A stretch of DNA of 64,000 nucleotides, taken from Coniferiporia sulphurascens. Lineage: Eukaryota; Basidiomycota; Agaricomycetes; Hymenochaetales; Hymenochaetaceae. Within the stretch, counting starts at the first letter, position 1; every line of letters starts with the position of its first letter. The notes under the pieces were generated by a model. That model was not told the origin of the DNA. It made no database searches and saw only the letters and a program-made list of their open reading frames with translations. Shown piece by piece: positions 39,384 to 56,373 of this stretch. The stretch covers positions 1,860,001 through 1,924,000 of the forward strand of contig NBBA01000001.1 of NCBI GenBank assembly GCA_002794785.1, read 5' to 3'. A program made the translations under genes and the position numbers.

Positions 39384-40199
39384 TTACCAGTCGGCCGAGG
39401 CGGGTTCACGTTTCCAGTCTGCCGAGGCGGGCTCGCGCCTCCAGTCTGCCGAAGCAGGCTTCGCCTCTCGTCTCCAGTCCGCCGAGGCGGGCTCACGCTT
39501 CCAATCAGCCGACGCTGGGTCGCGTTTCCAGTCTGCCGAGGCGGGCTCGCGTTTCCAATCGGCCGACGCAGGCTCCGCCTCCCGCCTCCAGTCCGCCGAA
39601 GCAGGTTCGAGTTCACGTTTCCAATCTGCGGATGCAGGTTCCGCTTCACGCTTCCAATCTGCCGACGCGGGCTCCGCCTCCCTTTTCCAATCTGCCGAAG
39701 CGGGTTCCGCCTCCCGCTTCCAATCCGCCGACGCCGGGTCGCGCTTCCAGTCCGCCGACGCAGGCTCCGCCTCGCGCCTCCAATCCGCCGACGCGGGGTC
39801 ACGTTTCCAGTCAGCGGAAGCGGGCTCCGCTTCACGTTTCCAATCCGCCGACGCAGGCTCCGCCTCGCGTTTCCAATCAGCAGACGCCGGGCTGCGTTTC
39901 CAATCAGCGGACGCAGGGTCGCGTTTCCAGTCAGCGGAGGCCGGCTCAGCCGCAGCCTCAGGCTCGGGCTCGGGCACGGGCTCCCTCTTCCAGTCGGCCG
40001 AGGCCGGGTCGCGTCTCCAGTCAGCAGATGCGGGCGCCCTGCGAAGGAGCTTCCAGTCTGCGGACGCAGCGCGCGCGTCAGGGGCCGGTACGGGTGCGGG
40101 CATGGGATCAGCGTTTGCGTTTGCGTTGGGGGTAGGGACAGGGGCGGCGCTGGCGACGGAGAGAGCCGCGAAGGCGAGGATGAACGAGATAGCGCGCAT
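39384..40199 (-). CDS. Secreted Kex2-type repeat precursor, 22 copies of ASADW
   Basis: A single exon of 271 codons plus TAA. Residues 1-18 (MRAISFILAFAALSVASA) are a textbook signal peptide. Next comes a pro-region made only of X-Pro and X-Ala dipeptides (AP-VP-TP-NA-NA-NA-DP-MP-AP-VP), then 22 copies of ASADW. Every copy except the first and last is directly followed by KR or RR; the first is followed by KLLRR and the last ends at the stop. Spacers between the dibasic site and the next ASADW are EP, DP, SP, AP, EAEP, EAKP, ELEP and one 14-residue run of X-P/X-A pairs. The core is identical in all copies although its codons differ (GCC GAC TGG, GCA GAC TGG, GCT GAT TGG). Predicted processing: signal peptidase, Kex2, Kex1-like trimming of KR, Ste13-like dipeptidase, yielding ASADW. 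Relatives are alpha-factor precursors and KEP proteins; no biosynthetic tailoring genes are nearby. Confidence 0.85.
   Translation of the reverse strand: MRAISFILAFAALSVASAAPVPTPNANANADPMPAPVPAPDARAASADWKLLRRAPASADWRRDPASADWKREPVPEPEPEAAAEPASADWKRDPASADWKRSPASADWKREAEPASADWKREAEPASADWKRDPASADWRREAEPASADWKRDPASADWKREAEPASADWKREAEPASADWKREAEPASADWKRELEPASADWRREAEPASADWKREPASADWKRDPASADWKREPASADWRREAKPASADWRREPASADWKREPASADW
39387..40068 (-). repeat. Coding tandem repeat, 22 units of 24-60 bp
   Basis: A minisatellite-like array within the ASADW precursor gene. Unit length changes in steps of six bases because whole dipeptide codon pairs are added or lost in the spacers. Dense repeat identity makes copy number likely to vary among strains. 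Confidence 0.85.
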
Positions 40200-43100
40200 A
40201 GTCGAACGAGTAAGGAAAGAGCAACAAATTCACAGTCTGTGTTAGAGGAAGAGAGGATAGCGCCGTGAGTTAGCTCCCGTAGCGACGGCGAAAGAACGGG
40301 GGGGGCGCGACGCGACGCACAAGGCAAAGGGACGATATAAAAGGGCTGCACCGACGTCGATGGCGGGGAGGGTGGGTGAAGGAGCGCGTGGGTAGCAGGG
40401 GCCGGGGAGGGAGAGGGGGAAGGGGGTTACTGTAAAGCGAAGGAGTAGGGGCACGGCCAGGGGCTATTTAATGCAGGACGGAACCAGGAACCACGGCCGA
40501 CAACGAGTGCAGGGATGGGAACGCTCCGTGCCTGGCCACGGGTAACCGTAATCCAAATCGGGCCCGTACCTGGACGAACCCCCCGGCAGAAGCCTGCCAT
40601 ATAAGTCCCCCAGTGTGACGCAGCGCGGCCCGGGCGCAATGAAGGCGCGCACTAGAGGCGAGGGCTCAGCGAAGAAGCTTCATTTCGAGCACAAAAGCGC
40701 GTTATTCGCGAGATAGAGGTCGCCTTGGAGGAGAGAGAGTTGATGGCGTCTCAGCGCACGACTACCGCTGATCGGAATCGACGACGAAATGCACCAGCAT
40801 TCCAGACGACCGCGAAGGTGAGTATGCACCTTAATTTCACGATTACCAAAATGAAAAACACGAGCACAGACAATCAATCTCCGTCCGCCAGACGGGATGA
40901 CTGTACACGGGATCAAACCCGAGCAGGCCTTCCCCCCGACGTCAGTGCAGCAAAAAAAAAAGACTCGTTGCCTCCCCTTACGGAGCAGCCTCCGCAGCAC
41001 CGCCCTTCATCGCCGGGCTGCGCGGCAAGGCACACACAGCGCCACTGCACGCGCACATTCGAGGTCCTTACAAACTTCAAACCTCTGCAACGCCTCGGAC
41101 GCCCGGATTCGGATTCCAGCGACGACTGGGGCTATCTCCCCCCATCTACGCGGACATCGATCGGGAAAGTGCGAGGTTGCTTTTGAATTGGAAATAATTG
41201 GATATTGGATATGGATTTGCGTTTTGGGTCTGGATCTGGATCTGGAATCTGGCCGCGAGCAGCGGCGGGCGGCGGCATCCGAGTCCGGGTACGATCGGAG
41301 GGTACCTTTCGCGGCATGTACAGCAAGACAATTGAGAGTCCGACCGAGCACAATAATAATGCCACTCAAGGTTGCCTTGTAAGAGGGGCCGGCGCGACGA
41401 ACGACGACCAGCCTTACACCGCCAGTGGCCACAGCCCGAAAAGCCAGGGCGGCACCAAATCGGGGACCACTCTCCGTCACGTCACACCGGTCGGACCTGC
41501 CCCCGTCGATCACGCAAAGAGCGGAACAGGAAAGTCGACGCAGTACACTACTGCCGGGACCTTTTTTTCTTTAGCTCTGACCCGTCAGCGCAGTTTTTGG
41601 TGGCGTCAAGCAGGTACATACATACAGTGCGGTATGGTATGGAAGCACCACGCCAAGCAAGGTTATGGCCACCTACGGCTTGGGGCCGGTGCTGCCAGTG
41701 CACCCAATCCCCAACCTATCCACCAATCCGCCAGTCCACCAATCCACCACTGCGGTAACTGGTGTGGGCGCGGGTTGCAGCTCCGCTCTAGGTGCAAGGT
41801 TCTTAGTCATCACAATAAAAAATGTATTCAAGGCCTGTCGTGCCGTGCGGCATCCAGAAAAAAAGCAAAAAGCAAAACGCAATTATTAAATTGAGAACCG
41901 CGCCATTAATAATAACAATAATAACAACCACCGGCCGGGTCTCTCCTCTGTCGGTGTCGGAAGTGGGAGAGGGGGTGGTGCCTGCTTACGGCGTCCCACT
42001 CCGATGAACAGCCAAAAAAAAACACGGAGTGAACCTTCAGTTTTTACATAACCATAAACCAACGAGTCGGGATTCGCAGTGGCCCTTATCCCTAGATACG
42101 TATGGATTTTGGATTTAGCGCCCAAAGTCCAATTCAATTCATTCATTCGTTCATTCTATTATTATCGAGATAGAGGGTTGGGTCCTTAATCCATCATCAT
42201 CCGTAACTCATTTTACACATGTACATGTAATTCAGTCCATTAAAAAGAAAGAAAAAAAAGACGGTACTGTGCTAGTCCCAAAAATAAACTTACTTGCTCC
42301 ATTCGCGCTAAACCAGATCGCGGCCGCCCGCTTCCACGAGACATTCGGGAAGGGGAGGGGGGAGGGGGGAGGGTGCGCCGATCTCCACGGCCGCGTTGCC
42401 GAGTCCAACAAGTACGCACCACATCCACGTCCACATACATGTATTAATTGTAGGTACTGTACTAGTTCCGTCATTAATATTGGAACCGAGATGTGCGTCG
42501 GCGACGAGCGAGCGAGCGATACCACGCCCCCTCCCTTCCCTCCCCCCCACTTCCTTCGTCGTTTAAACCTCGGCTTTGGCTTCGGCTTCGGCATAAACTT
42601 CAGCTTCGGCACGGACTTGAGCTTCGGCATGAACCCCGGCTCAAGCTTCTTTCTGTCCCGCACTCATCCCCCTAGGCCTATCTATCCCTATACAGCGCTC
42701 AAAACTTCTTCCCAACTTAAGCTTGTCAACGACAAAACCGATCACCAATCAGCAAAACAAAACCATCAATCAGCAATTCTGCAACAAAACAAAAAACAGG
42801 TTCCGGCAACAAAGACAAAGAAAGAAAGAAAGTTTCCCTCGTTAACGCCCACCCTACGGCTACATCTGAACCCCGCCGGGCTATGCCGGCGGGAAGGCAG
42901 ACGTGGCAAGCACCCCTCGTTCAATCAATCAATCAAGGCAACAACCTTACTTCACCGCCCACATAAGTAATTCCAAGAACCCCTCTCTCCAAAGATCCTC
43001 CCCCGTCCCAACTTCGACTCGCCGTTCCCCGGTGGGGGAATGGCAATATTAATGGGAGGAGTGAGTTTCGTATTCTTGGCGGCGCGCCACCCCTCTTATC

Positions 43101-43979: not shown

Positions 43980-44746
43980 TTAGGCCGAGCCGCGCTTCCA
44001 ATCCTTTCCTGAACCGCCCATGCCTCCTTGCTGATGACAAAACAGCAGTCAGCATTCAGACAAGAGATGAGGGCAGATGAAGCCGACTAACAGGAAGGGG
44101 TGCGGGCTCTCTTTTCCAGTCCTTGCCGGAACCACCCATGTTACCCTGCTGTATAAGAGAAGTGGCAATGAGCAAGAAGGATCGCCCAGATCGCCTTGGA
44201 GATAGTAACGCCTAAAATTATTACTCACGGGAAGGGCCTCGGGCTCGCGTTTCCAGTCTTTGCTGCCAAAACCGCTCTGCTATTGGCATATGGGCATAAG
44301 CCAAACGCGAACGATAGATGATGTAACTTACAGGCTCGCGCTTCCAGTCCTTTCCTGAACCGCCCATGCCTCCTTGCTGCATCCGCGAAATTTTTCGTCA
44401 TTAGATACAACCCTTTGCCCGGGATGCACGGGAAAGACATACCGGCAACGCCTTGCGCTTCCAGTCCTTGCCGCTGCCACCCATGCCACCCTGCTAAAGA
44501 AAATGCATCAAGACCAAAAGCCAAATAAGCAATTTAGTCCGGGTTAGTGCTCACAGGCTCAGCTACGCGCTTGGCGAGGGCATCGGGCGAGGCGATCTAA
44601 TCCAGGAGAGAGGGGGGAGACGAATTTGAGCAAGCCAGAACTAGAACAGCCCAATTAGAGCAGAAGACACGCACGGGAGCAGCCTGGACGAAGGCGAGGA
44701 AGAAGAACAGGCAGGAGACGAGGAGGAGGAGCTTCGGAGAATACAT
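43980..44746 (-). CDS. Secreted Kex2-type precursor with one W-ending peptide per exon
   Basis: Seven exons: 44675-44746, 44555-44596, 44443-44493, 44332-44376, 44229-44279, 44092-44148 and 43980-44030. All are joined by phase-0 GT..AG introns of 52-80 nt; together they code for 122 residues. Exon 1 is a signal peptide (MYSPKLLLLVSCLFFFLAFV, then QA/AP). Exon 2 is a pro-piece, IASPDALAKRVAEP. Exons 3-7 each code for one unit starting with Gln and ending DWKR or DWKR plus spacer: QGGMGGSGKDW three times, QSGFGSKDW and QGNMGGSGKDW once each. Spacers after KR are VA-EP, KA-LP, EP, EP-EA-LP and EP-AP-LP, always whole X-Ala/X-Pro dipeptides. The likely mature products are Gln-first (perhaps pyroglutamate) peptides of 9-11 residues ending in Trp. 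No continuous frame reveals this gene; it appears only on splicing. It is related in design to the ASADW precursor 3.8 kb away. Confidence 0.83.
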
Positions 44747-53476: not shown

Positions 53477-54117
53477 TCCTTGTAAGATATTACATTTCTC
53501 TGTACTATATTTGCTACCTAGTGTCGGTGCTTCGTAATTTGCGTGTATTTCCGTATCTTGGAAATAATAATGAGGCGCTGCGAATGTGATCTGTGAGTAG
53601 GTGTGACTAGCGAACACGCGACACGTCAACAAGCAACAACAACGCGTGCCGGTTGCTTATCGTGCTGTAGCCACAACTGTGCTTCAATGGACACATTGTG
53701 CTTCTGCCCAGTGCTGGCGCGGACACTGTTTATGCCCTCTTTCCAAGTCATCTTGCCGATGAGGATTTTCATGTAGTTGCTCGCCAGGACGCGGGTCATC
53801 GATTGGCACAGTTAGACCCGGTTGTTGTTGTTAATCTCGGCATATGTACTTCTGCGCTAGTAGTATACTTTGTCCGCGACATCCTCGACTGCAATACATT
53901 AAGATTAACCCGGGAAAGTCCAGGAATTTCTTTAAAGAACGCCCCAGAGTCCAGGATCGCCATGATCGTGGGAAAGGCAGGCTGCCGTGTTCAACTCAGT
54001 TCTCGCTTAGCGTGGCTCGCAACTCAACTTGAACCGTACTTCGAACACGCCGCTTTTCATCACGACGAGCACGACTCCCAACGACGCGGACACGAACCAG
54101 TATCTGCTGCCAGCCAA
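53477..54117. other. Intergenic / possible 5' UTR before coiled-coil gene
   Basis: About 640 bp. The frame of the next gene stays open back to about 53700, but the first codon there is GTG, and the only ATG before 54118 is at 53962. I treat the region as promoter and 5' UTR. Confidence 0.4.
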
Positions 54118-56373
54118 ATGGCCAGCGTAACGACCAAGACGCCGGATGCTACGAAACCAGCGAGACGGACCACACGGAGCTCAATTCGACACTCCTTGAA
54201 TTTGGCTTCAGTCGGTAAGGCACTCGCGGATGTGATAAACAAAGAGGGAAAAGACTCGGAGCGCAGGAAGTCGACTGTGGGCACTCGCTCGAAGGATGTT
54301 CCCGGACGCCGAGCGAGCACCATCGGGTTTACCAAGGGAGGCGGCGTACTCGAACCGGTACTCGAGGGTCAGTCACGAAACATCACGCCGCATGACCTGA
54401 AGACGGTGACACAACCAAGGAGGTCGAGCTCCTCATTGCAAAGGGCTGGGAGGTTATCTGTGGACGAGACCGGCTCCAAGGTCACGACCACCACCTCGCC
54501 GCAGTCGACCACCCTCAATCATGCTACCACCACCTTGCGTCCACGCAAGACTGGCCCAGGATCCGCCCTTCCGAAGTACAGGCCGAAGTCTGTCATTGTG
54601 GAAGGCCTTCCTAGAAGGTCTTTGTCCCCTATTTATGCTGGTACGCGCAGGAAGCACAGCAGCTCTGAAGAGGACAGAGATAGTTCCAGCTTGGGAACCA
54701 CTTGCGCCCACGTCGTACACTCGCCTATGGACAAAATGAGTAGGCCAATCAGTCCTATCCCCCGCAGGTCCTCAAGGATCACCCCGACCATCTCGTCAAG
54801 GACCGGCAACGACAAGCCCTCGCCCTCACGTAAGGAGAAGATCGCCAGGAATTCCCCAGCCACCTCTACTCCCCCGCGTCCTAGGAAGACGCAGAAGCCA
54901 TCGTCGTCGCCTGTGGTAAAGAAGACCGGCTTGCCGCGCCTGTCGCCTCGCGATGGCTCTCCTGCCTCTTCCTCAGACAGTCCTCAAACTCCTACTTCTG
55001 CAAAGAACGTTGCATCGCGTTATCTGAACGTTCGCTCCACTGGTCGCGAGAGTCCAAGCCCCTTACGCGGTTCATCTGTTCTCAATGGATCCACTTCGTC
55101 GCGTAGAAATATAGTGAAGGGCTTTGTGGACTCCGAGTCGGATTCAAGTCAGAATACTCCAACCGCGGCCATCGTGACAAAGTCATCTGGAGGCTATTCA
55201 GAGGGACCAGGTAATGACAGCGTAGATGATGTCGAGTTTATGCTTGCAGAAATTGCCTCTCCTTCGGCACCGACACCCGGAATTCCTAGAATACAGACAA
55301 CTTTCCAAGGTTCTCAGCCACCGGAAACACCGTCGCGACCTTCTCTTCATCCACAGAAGTCTATGTTAGGACTGTCCCTGGCTCCTAAAAACGATACCTT
55401 GCCTCTTCCATCCCCGCGGAAATCCTCACCCGACCGTAGGCCTGCCGCTGAGCGTAATTCCATTGCCGCATGGGAGAAACTGGCGGATTTGTCTGTAGAA
55501 ATTAATGCAGCAGAATTGGGTGGGGGTTTGATCACGGAGCTGGACCTTCCGTCAACACCAGGCATGTTGTCCCCGAGTCCAAGTATCATGCGACTAGATT
55601 CTGAGCAAGGAGGACGTGAGAGTCCCACACCCCTTACGCTCCCCTCGCCTGGTGGTTATGCCTCCATATCTCAGGTACTCCTCCCCGCCGTGACTCCATC
55701 GCCCGCACCGGCTATGCACTCTTTACATAGTAATGACTTCTTCGGCGACGACCAAAGAATGGACTCGGGGACGGTAACCTTACTAAGACTCCAGCTCGCC
55801 TCCGTGGAGAATCTTGCAAAGGAGCGCCTTGCACGGATAACACGTCTCGAGGAACAGATGCATGCGTTGAAGGAGATACGTAACCGAGAGGAGCACGAGC
55901 TTGCATCGCACGCAGCCGAGCTAGAGGAGCGCCTTAATGAGGCGCTTGCCAGTCGTGAGCATGATCAGGAGGACACCATACGTTTCGGTCCAGTTCCTTC
56001 TGCTGAAGAAGCTACGGAAGCTCACGCAGCGTGTCGTGACATGCTTGAGGACTACGTGCAGCAGGCGGAGGACTCACGCCGAGAGGCGGTTTCCGCCGCT
56101 ATTGCTGAGTTCTCAGAGCGGGAGCGAGCAGAGCGTGCGCAGCTCTTGCTACAGGTAGAGAAGCGACAACAACTTTCGATTGTTGTTCGCGACGCGGGGA
56201 AGCAGTGGCAGAACGTACACGATGTTGCGGATGGAGAGTTGGAAGCTATTCGCACGAACCGCGAGACGCTGGCCGTCTTACGGGCAGGGTTGGACTTTTT
56301 TGAGGCGCAGATTTACATTAGTCGTTGCATACGCATCCCACCTCCTACCGCCGCTCGATTTCACTTGACGTAG
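54118..56373 (+). CDS. Large Ser/Pro-rich protein with C-terminal coiled coil, unknown function
   Basis: An intronless frame. The chosen start is MASVTTKTPDATKPARRTTR at 54118 because the sequence upstream is less protein-like; ATG 53962 is an alternative adding 52 residues. Residues 1 to about 530 are basic and Ser/Thr/Pro-rich, with many SP and RRS/RRAS-type phospho-motifs (GLPRRSLSPIYAG; RPISPIPRRSSRITP), typical of disordered, kinase-regulated cytoskeletal proteins. From about residue 550 to 740 it is heptad-rich and acidic-basic (LLRLQLASVENLAKERLARI, RLEEQMHALKEIRNREEHEL), a clear coiled coil. The C-terminus after that is short. No catalytic domain is visible and I do not recognise the family. 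It may be a cytoskeletal or cell-cycle scaffold, which is inference only. Confidence 0.75.
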   Translation: MASVTTKTPDATKPARRTTRSSIRHSLNLASVGKALADVINKEGKDSERRKSTVGTRSKDVPGRRASTIGFTKGGGVLEPVLEGQSRNITPHDLKTVTQPRRSSSSLQRAGRLSVDETGSKVTTTTSPQSTTLNHATTTLRPRKTGPGSALPKYRPKSVIVEGLPRRSLSPIYAGTRRKHSSSEEDRDSSSLGTTCAHVVHSPMDKMSRPISPIPRRSSRITPTISSRTGNDKPSPSRKEKIARNSPATSTPPRPRKTQKPSSSPVVKKTGLPRLSPRDGSPASSSDSPQTPTSAKNVASRYLNVRSTGRESPSPLRGSSVLNGSTSSRRNIVKGFVDSESDSSQNTPTAAIVTKSSGGYSEGPGNDSVDDVEFMLAEIASPSAPTPGIPRIQTTFQGSQPPETPSRPSLHPQKSMLGLSLAPKNDTLPLPSPRKSSPDRRPAAERNSIAAWEKLADLSVEINAAELGGGLITELDLPSTPGMLSPSPSIMRLDSEQGGRESPTPLTLPSPGGYASISQVLLPAVTPSPAPAMHSLHSNDFFGDDQRMDSGTVTLLRLQLASVENLAKERLARITRLEEQMHALKEIRNREEHELASHAAELEERLNEALASREHDQEDTIRFGPVPSAEEATEAHAACRDMLEDYVQQAEDSRREAVSAAIAEFSERERAERAQLLLQVEKRQQLSIVVRDAGKQWQNVHDVADGELEAIRTNRETLAVLRAGLDFFEAQIYISRCIRIPPPTAARFHLT

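Follow-up and report, generated by a model that had tools for sequence, protein, structure and literature searches.

What a fungus would release from a gene that spells out the same five residues 22 times, and to what end, is the question raised by a locus of Coniferiporia sulphurascens. The locus lies in a 64,000-nucleotide stretch of contig NBBA01000001.1 (positions 1,860,001 to 1,924,000 of the forward strand), here called the window; the contig is referred to as C1.

Structure of the ASADW precursor gene

Translation of the ORF gave 22 exact copies of the pentapeptide ASADW within 271 residues, in agreement with the coordinates and counts of the original prediction (22 cores, 20 of them followed by KR or RR, the last at the stop codon). 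The feature limits, together with those of a second precursor gene described below, are collected in Table 1. Of the 21 cores with anything downstream, 15 run straight into KR and five into RR, 20 dibasic pairs in all; KLLRR comes after the first core and the stop codon after the 22nd. The mass of about 549.23 proposed for the product was reproduced, with a computed MH+ of 549.2304 for ASADW.

Table 1. Features of the two precursor genes, in window positions
Feature	Position	Strand	Description
ASADW precursor gene	39384..40199	-	Single ATG-to-stop ORF, 271 aa plus stop
Putative signal peptide MRAISFILAFAALSVASA	40146..40199	-	Set by eye; predicted cleavage before APVP, by the A-X-A rule
Pro-region APVPTPNANANADPMPAPVPAPDARA	40068..40145	-	All 13 dipeptides have A or P as second residue; same register as core 1
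Core array	39387..40067	-	22 ASADW cores with KR/RR (once KLLRR) and X-A/X-P spacers; last core ends at the stop
Second STE13-type KEP (KDW gene)	43980..44746	-	122 aa, 7 exons; predicted exon model set by eye

A search of the 39.3-Mb genome for two DW[KR]R motifs separated by 6-36 bases returned 18 matches, all 18 in the ASADW gene, and a control pattern returned none, which excludes chance as the source of the array. An ASADW[KR]R-type pattern gave 22 matches in the genome, comprising 20 in the ASADW gene and two isolated ones on contigs C6 and C13 (control pattern, 1); no further ASADW arrays were seen elsewhere in the genome by this search. The ASADW array is real, and the precursor is intact and under selection.

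Selection on the core peptide

The 22 cores are encoded by 18 distinct 15-mers with no amino-acid change among them, every difference being synonymous and located at a third codon position of the minus frame. Synonymous changes make up 0.222 of the possible single changes in the core. By our own arithmetic, the chance that at least nine extra codon types would all be synonymous is about 1e-6, and the 21 changes along the minimum spanning tree of the cores give 2e-14, although copying between repeats would weaken both figures. The spacers, unlike the cores, vary in their amino acids (EAEP, ELEP, EAKP, EP, DP, SP and AP). Judged from this pattern, selection acts on the ASADW peptide, as had been proposed from the invariance of the core under varying codons, and the conclusion stands even if the figures are too strong under inter-repeat copying. 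Recent DNA duplication alone was ruled out as the source of the array by the synonymous-only variation of the cores. Since the differences all fall at third positions of the minus frame, this is the coding frame, and the antisense ORFs 39632-40135 and 40102-40245 on the plus strand were rejected as genes.

Spacer register and proposed processing

The original prediction of a secreted multi-copy precursor with dibasic sites was supported, the sites being of KEX2 type and the signal-like start being recognized by eye. It had placed the cores between the dibasic sites; the dibasic pairs were confirmed, but the interval between them holds X-Ala or X-Pro dipeptides as well as ASADW. All 21 spacers between a dibasic site and a core are even in length (2, 4 or 14 residues), and 20 of them are composed of a whole number of such dipeptides, the exception being ELEP. 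Shuffling residues within spacers never yielded 20 decomposable spacers (0/100000 shuffles; mean 7.3). The same register extends upstream, where the 26 residues from the putative signal cleavage site to the first core are made up of X-A/X-P dipeptides in 13 of 13 positions, matched by 10 of 200000 shuffles. Dipeptides of this kind are described as the signature that the STE13 dipeptidyl aminopeptidase removes in alpha-pheromone precursors (PMC6339444, PMC9769878).

With spacers filled in this way, release of ASADW would require three proteases: KEX2, a carboxypeptidase of the KEX1 type and an enzyme of the STE13 type. In the proposed pathway, the signal peptide would be removed in the ER, KEX2 would cleave after each KR or RR in the late Golgi, the C-terminal basic pair would be taken off by a KEX1-type carboxypeptidase, and an STE13-type dipeptidyl aminopeptidase would strip X-A/X-P dipeptides until Ala-Ser is reached, releasing linear, unmodified ASADW at a yield of about 20 copies per precursor. 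The earlier claim that ASADW is the mature product is thus retained for the core, but not for the enzymes implied, because KEX2 and KEX1 alone would leave forms extended by DP, EP, SP, AP or EAEP. Two copies are predicted to deviate: copy 1 would appear as ASADWKLL, and copy 15 as ELEPASADW, given that EL is not a standard STE13 dipeptide. The computed MH+ values of these predicted and of the extended forms are 903.493 (ASADWKLL), 1017.452 (ELEPASADW), 761.310 (DPASADW), 775.326 (EPASADW) and 975.405 (EAEPASADW).

Both a kexin and a dipeptidyl aminopeptidase are encoded in the genome, as judged from domain matches that lie on separate exons. Two kexin P-domain loci were found, along with one DPPIV_N locus; the kexin match on C13 is interrupted by a stop, which may reflect an intron. 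Exons of locus L019 encode S8 and P domains, with a membrane anchor placed by eye at the C-terminus; those of locus L018 encode DPPIV_N and S9 domains and a membrane anchor, also set by eye, after a long N-terminal tail. Trimming of XA/XP from a Coprinopsis KEX2-processed repeat protein (KEP) by Pichia has been reported (PMC9769878).

The ASADW gene very probably encodes a KEP with an alpha-factor-style layout that is processed as proposed, even though ELEP, one spacer in 21, breaks the register. We infer the processing model with strong confidence.

A second precursor with one core per exon

The original prediction described a single locus; its ASADW array stands, but a second KEP on the same strand, 3780 bp away, had been missed. 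This gene, here called the KDW gene, was modelled by eye; its six introns measure 52-80 bp, are GT-AG throughout and lie in phase 0, with a one-codon ambiguity at some CAGCAG acceptors. A signal exon and a pro exon are followed by five core exons, each with one core and then KR: QGGMGGSGKDW (three copies), QSGFGSKDW (one) and QGNMGGSGKDW (one). The core exons start at the Gln of the core, and the last residue of the four non-terminal ones is the final Pro of the XA/XP spacer. Of the six segments downstream of KR, five consist of XA/XP throughout and one is the C-terminal tail GSA. A product of the commonest core with an N-terminal pyroGlu, pyroGlu-GGMGGSGKDW, would have a computed MH+ of 1062.431.

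When a KEP of Sanghuangporus weigelae (P0059) was used as the genome query, the ASADW gene was matched once and the interval 44101-44493 three times; all four matches were weak, the best having an E of 0.0097. P0059 and P0063, from Phellopilus nigrolimitatus, are homologs of the KDW gene with 72 and 70 percent identity, respectively. Their layout resembles that of the ASADW precursor, but their cores are longer, Gly-rich and not ASADW. The contig of P0063 is equal in length, at 2,651,010 bases, to that of the Phellopilus homolog of the ORF at 53671-56373 of the window, which suggests synteny. The best match of this 900-residue ORF was from Coniferiporia weirii (93 percent identical, with 83 percent of the query covered), and the next ones were mostly from other Hymenochaetales. 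Comparison of the two precursors with each other gave a BLAST E of 8e-10 for this single pair, a score driven by repeats and composition, so that no paralogy is claimed.

The gap between the two KEPs is overlapped by 12 ATG ORFs of at least 60 aa. Three stop-to-stop ORFs from this interval (40656-41186, 41187-41894 and 42119-42970) were scanned against Pfam and had no match, and a conserved gene is probably absent from the gap. Nor was a third KEP array seen in a six-frame motif scan of the window and 20 kb on each side, which gave 11 isolated flank matches and which intron-split arrays with other cores could escape. The Pfam scan of the window covered 20 of its 63 ORFs of at least 150 aa and recognized a V-ATPase subunit C and KH-domain, RWD and Myb proteins, as well as a WD40 match below the cut-off. 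At positions 81-286 of the window there are about 2.3 copies of a 69-bp repeat whose frames are open on both strands, one minus frame reading as a Pro/Thr/Lys-rich repeat.

In the main texts of three KEP studies (PMC6339444, PMC7329392, PMC9769878) the word 'exon' is absent and 'intron' occurs once, in connection with amplifying intron-less cDNA; on this count, the one-core-per-exon layout may be undescribed.

Relatives and described precursors

The search with the ASADW precursor protein returned at least 4 matches at E <=0.001 among 7995 scored candidates, and a four-row profile returned at least 21 at E <=10 among 7997 scored candidates. Of the 21 profile matches listed, 12 had E <=0.001, three of these being the profile rows themselves; P0063 was found at E 0.043. 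The named sources belong, as we take it, to Agaricales, Ramaria, Jaapia and Hymenochaetales. Of the 21 retrieved proteins, 17 contain DW[KR]R once or more, and P0053 lacks W[KR]R altogether. Over the 103 W[KR]R sites of the set, D is the preceding residue in 79 and XA/XP comes next in 76; both counts are biased because DWKR was favoured by the searches. P0068, which is among the 17 and carries one ASADW, is probably an unrelated chance match; no ASADW array was present in the other proteins among the 21 listed.

No close ortholog of the ASADW precursor from other Hymenochaetales was found among the matches listed, and no C. weirii protein for either KEP. The latter species is represented in the database and yet is missing for the KDW gene too, so the absence of an ortholog carries little weight. 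A Pleurotus eryngii protein (P0067) used as query against the genome gave nothing at E <=1, not even the ASADW gene itself, which marks the search as insensitive. A bacterial or archaeal origin was rejected after a scan of genome contigs, from which near-identical records may be left out, gave 28 pattern matches and no confirmed relatives.

The statement that no basidiomycete peptide of this sequence is described needs to be divided. Among the papers listed, the exact letters appeared only in work on subjects that are unrelated by title and abstract, but the class is known. KEPs with STE13 signatures were reported in Basidiomycota in 2019 (PMC6339444), a 2020 survey counted 7878 KEPs (PMC7329392), and a 2022 study confirmed -AADW peptides in fruiting bodies of Lentinula and Pleurotus, its authors pointing out the shared ending (PMC9769878). 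Among the newer works listed, none came closer to the ASADW precursor by title. We take Phellinus sulphurascens to be a synonym of the source species. The terms 'pheromone' and 'kex' do not occur in the main text of an expression study under that name (PMC4117978).

Measured by the KEP definition of Umemura, which asks for three or more tandem repeats, each 8 aa or longer, between KEX2 sites, the ASADW precursor qualifies: of its 21 units after a dibasic site, ten have 9 or 19 aa and the other 11 have 7 aa. The JGI code Fomme1 presumably denotes Fomitiporia mediterranea, which would belong to the same order as the ASADW fungus. One of the KEPs of Le Marquer et al. carries this code (PMC7329392), and the basidiomycete alpha-pheromone-like KEPs of that 2019 study are alike in layout to the ASADW gene as far as their description in the text goes (PMC6339444). 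Pleurotus ostreatus KEP 1091723 (SGVAADW) and Lentinula edodes KEP 2599 (SGTGEASAADW) share with it multiple cores between dibasic sites and -ADW ends, and in the Pleurotus KEPs the dibasic site is, moreover, followed by XA/XP dipeptides; Pleurotus KEPs with STE13 motifs are reported to yield MSGVAADW, SGVAADW and LSGVAADW in fruiting bodies (PMC9769878). Going by these published descriptions, the ASADW gene is set apart by its five-residue core, by the identity of all 22 copies, by the extension of XA/XP through the pro-region, and by its occurrence in Hymenochaetales. Cores ending in SADW before KR are also present in P0004 (Stygiomarasmius scandens) and P0003 (Dendrothele bispora), but their spacers are acidic, of the KREEE type, with XA/XP after only 1/9 and 1/7 of the W[KR]R sites, respectively.

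Ascomycete alpha-pheromone precursors, as their layout is given in PMC6339444, likewise combine a signal, a pro-region, dibasic sites with XA/XP and repeated cores. They differ in having an unrelated and longer core, reported to span 9 to 24 residues and to be repeated 1 to 16 times, against five residues and 22 copies in the basidiomycete gene; the shortness of ASADW counts against the explanation preferred here. By the features of their predicted products, the ASADW and KDW genes fit the known class of KEPs with STE13 signatures.

Possible functions of the peptide

Our tentative preference, held at somewhat less than even confidence, is that ASADW would serve the mycelium as a secreted non-sexual signal, alongside the peptide QGGMGGSGKDW from the gene next to it. 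A more specific proposal, that the two adjacent genes, whose peptides would share a free C-terminal Asp-Trp, provide self-signals through a non-STE2 receptor and form an alpha-factor-style hormone system outside mating, seems unlikely. Alternatively, ASADW could act outward as an effector or in defence, on the host tree, competitors or soil animals, which is possible though rather doubtful. Most defence peptides are cationic or cysteine-rich, whereas ASADW is small, acidic and neither of these. The STE13 layout is, in addition, best known in self-signalling pheromones (PMC6339444). On the other side, the six Coprinopsis kep knockouts showed no apparent phenotype in the published account, whose authors lean towards a function directed at the biotic environment (PMC9769878), a result that also argues against an essential developmental hormone. 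The 2019 study retains an effector role as a non-exclusive option (PMC6339444), and the lifestyle recorded for the fungus is parasitic to saprophytic, on gymnosperms (PMC10410303).

A precursor of a modified cyclic RiPP of the dikaritin type would share the architecture of a signal followed by KEX2 repeats, and UstYa matches do exist in the genome; we nevertheless consider this reading highly improbable. The six matches lie on contigs C4 and C2, none of them on C1, none was found in the 20 of 63 window ORFs scanned, and the core has no Tyr. A cyclization based on its Trp may be envisaged. With no UstYa match on the contig, a cyclic RiPP was discarded as the leading idea, and the ASADW peptide is expected to be linear. 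The UstYa-type matches on C4 (1937186-1938669 and 1962977-1964461) form two mirror-image pairs about 25 kb apart with strands reversed; one match scores equally in both pairs and the other at 49.4 and 51.6 bits, and the arrangement may reflect an inverted duplication and mark a cluster of the dikaritin type.

That ASADW is a true alpha-type mating pheromone is scarcely credible, despite the alpha-pheromone layout of its precursor. STE2 gave no match in the genome, as was also the case in the control genomes, and no alpha-factor family was matched in Pfam at E <=1, the sole match being Borrelia_P83 at E 0.58, below the cut-off. STE3 and a MIP-like Peptidase_M3 were taken by us as markers of mating loci. 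All eight STE3 matches are on contig C8, and the Peptidase_M3 match, although on C1, is 1.85 Mb from the ASADW gene, which by these markers is therefore not at a mating locus. The STE3 matches on C8 (772662-781279) fall into three groups, which are probably three receptor genes of a likely pheromone-receptor mating locus. An a-type pheromone was also rejected: these peptides have a C-terminal CaaX and no secretion signal, whereas the ASADW precursor begins with a signal-like segment and its last four residues are SADW. The mating pheromones of basidiomycetes are described as a-type (PMC6339444, PMC9769878).

Finally, the intact precursor or an uncut run of repeats could be the product, as a wall or surface protein, since the repeats are long and regular and the processing is a predicted one, but this would leave the X-A/X-P register in spacers of three different sizes with no evident reason and is hardly plausible.

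Biological significance

Alpha-type pheromones are not expected in basidiomycetes, yet precursors in the style of alpha-factor are encoded in some genomes of the group. The ASADW gene is an extreme case among these, with 22 identical five-residue cores, a register that fills nearly the whole precursor, and a paired neighbour gene, all in a well-assembled genome. Because each KDW core would form its own phase-0 exon, the dose or mixture of peptides could be shifted by exon duplication or alternative splicing. The 2020 survey required repeats of at least 8 residues (PMC7329392) and the 2022 mass spectrometry study dropped peptides of fewer than 6 (PMC9769878), so that a five-residue product would easily be missed; very short trimmed products like ASADW would be under-reported, as they can be hidden by the cut-offs of current screens. 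In a genus counted among tree pathogens (PMC10410303), the ASADW gene offers one exact small peptide for synthesis and testing.
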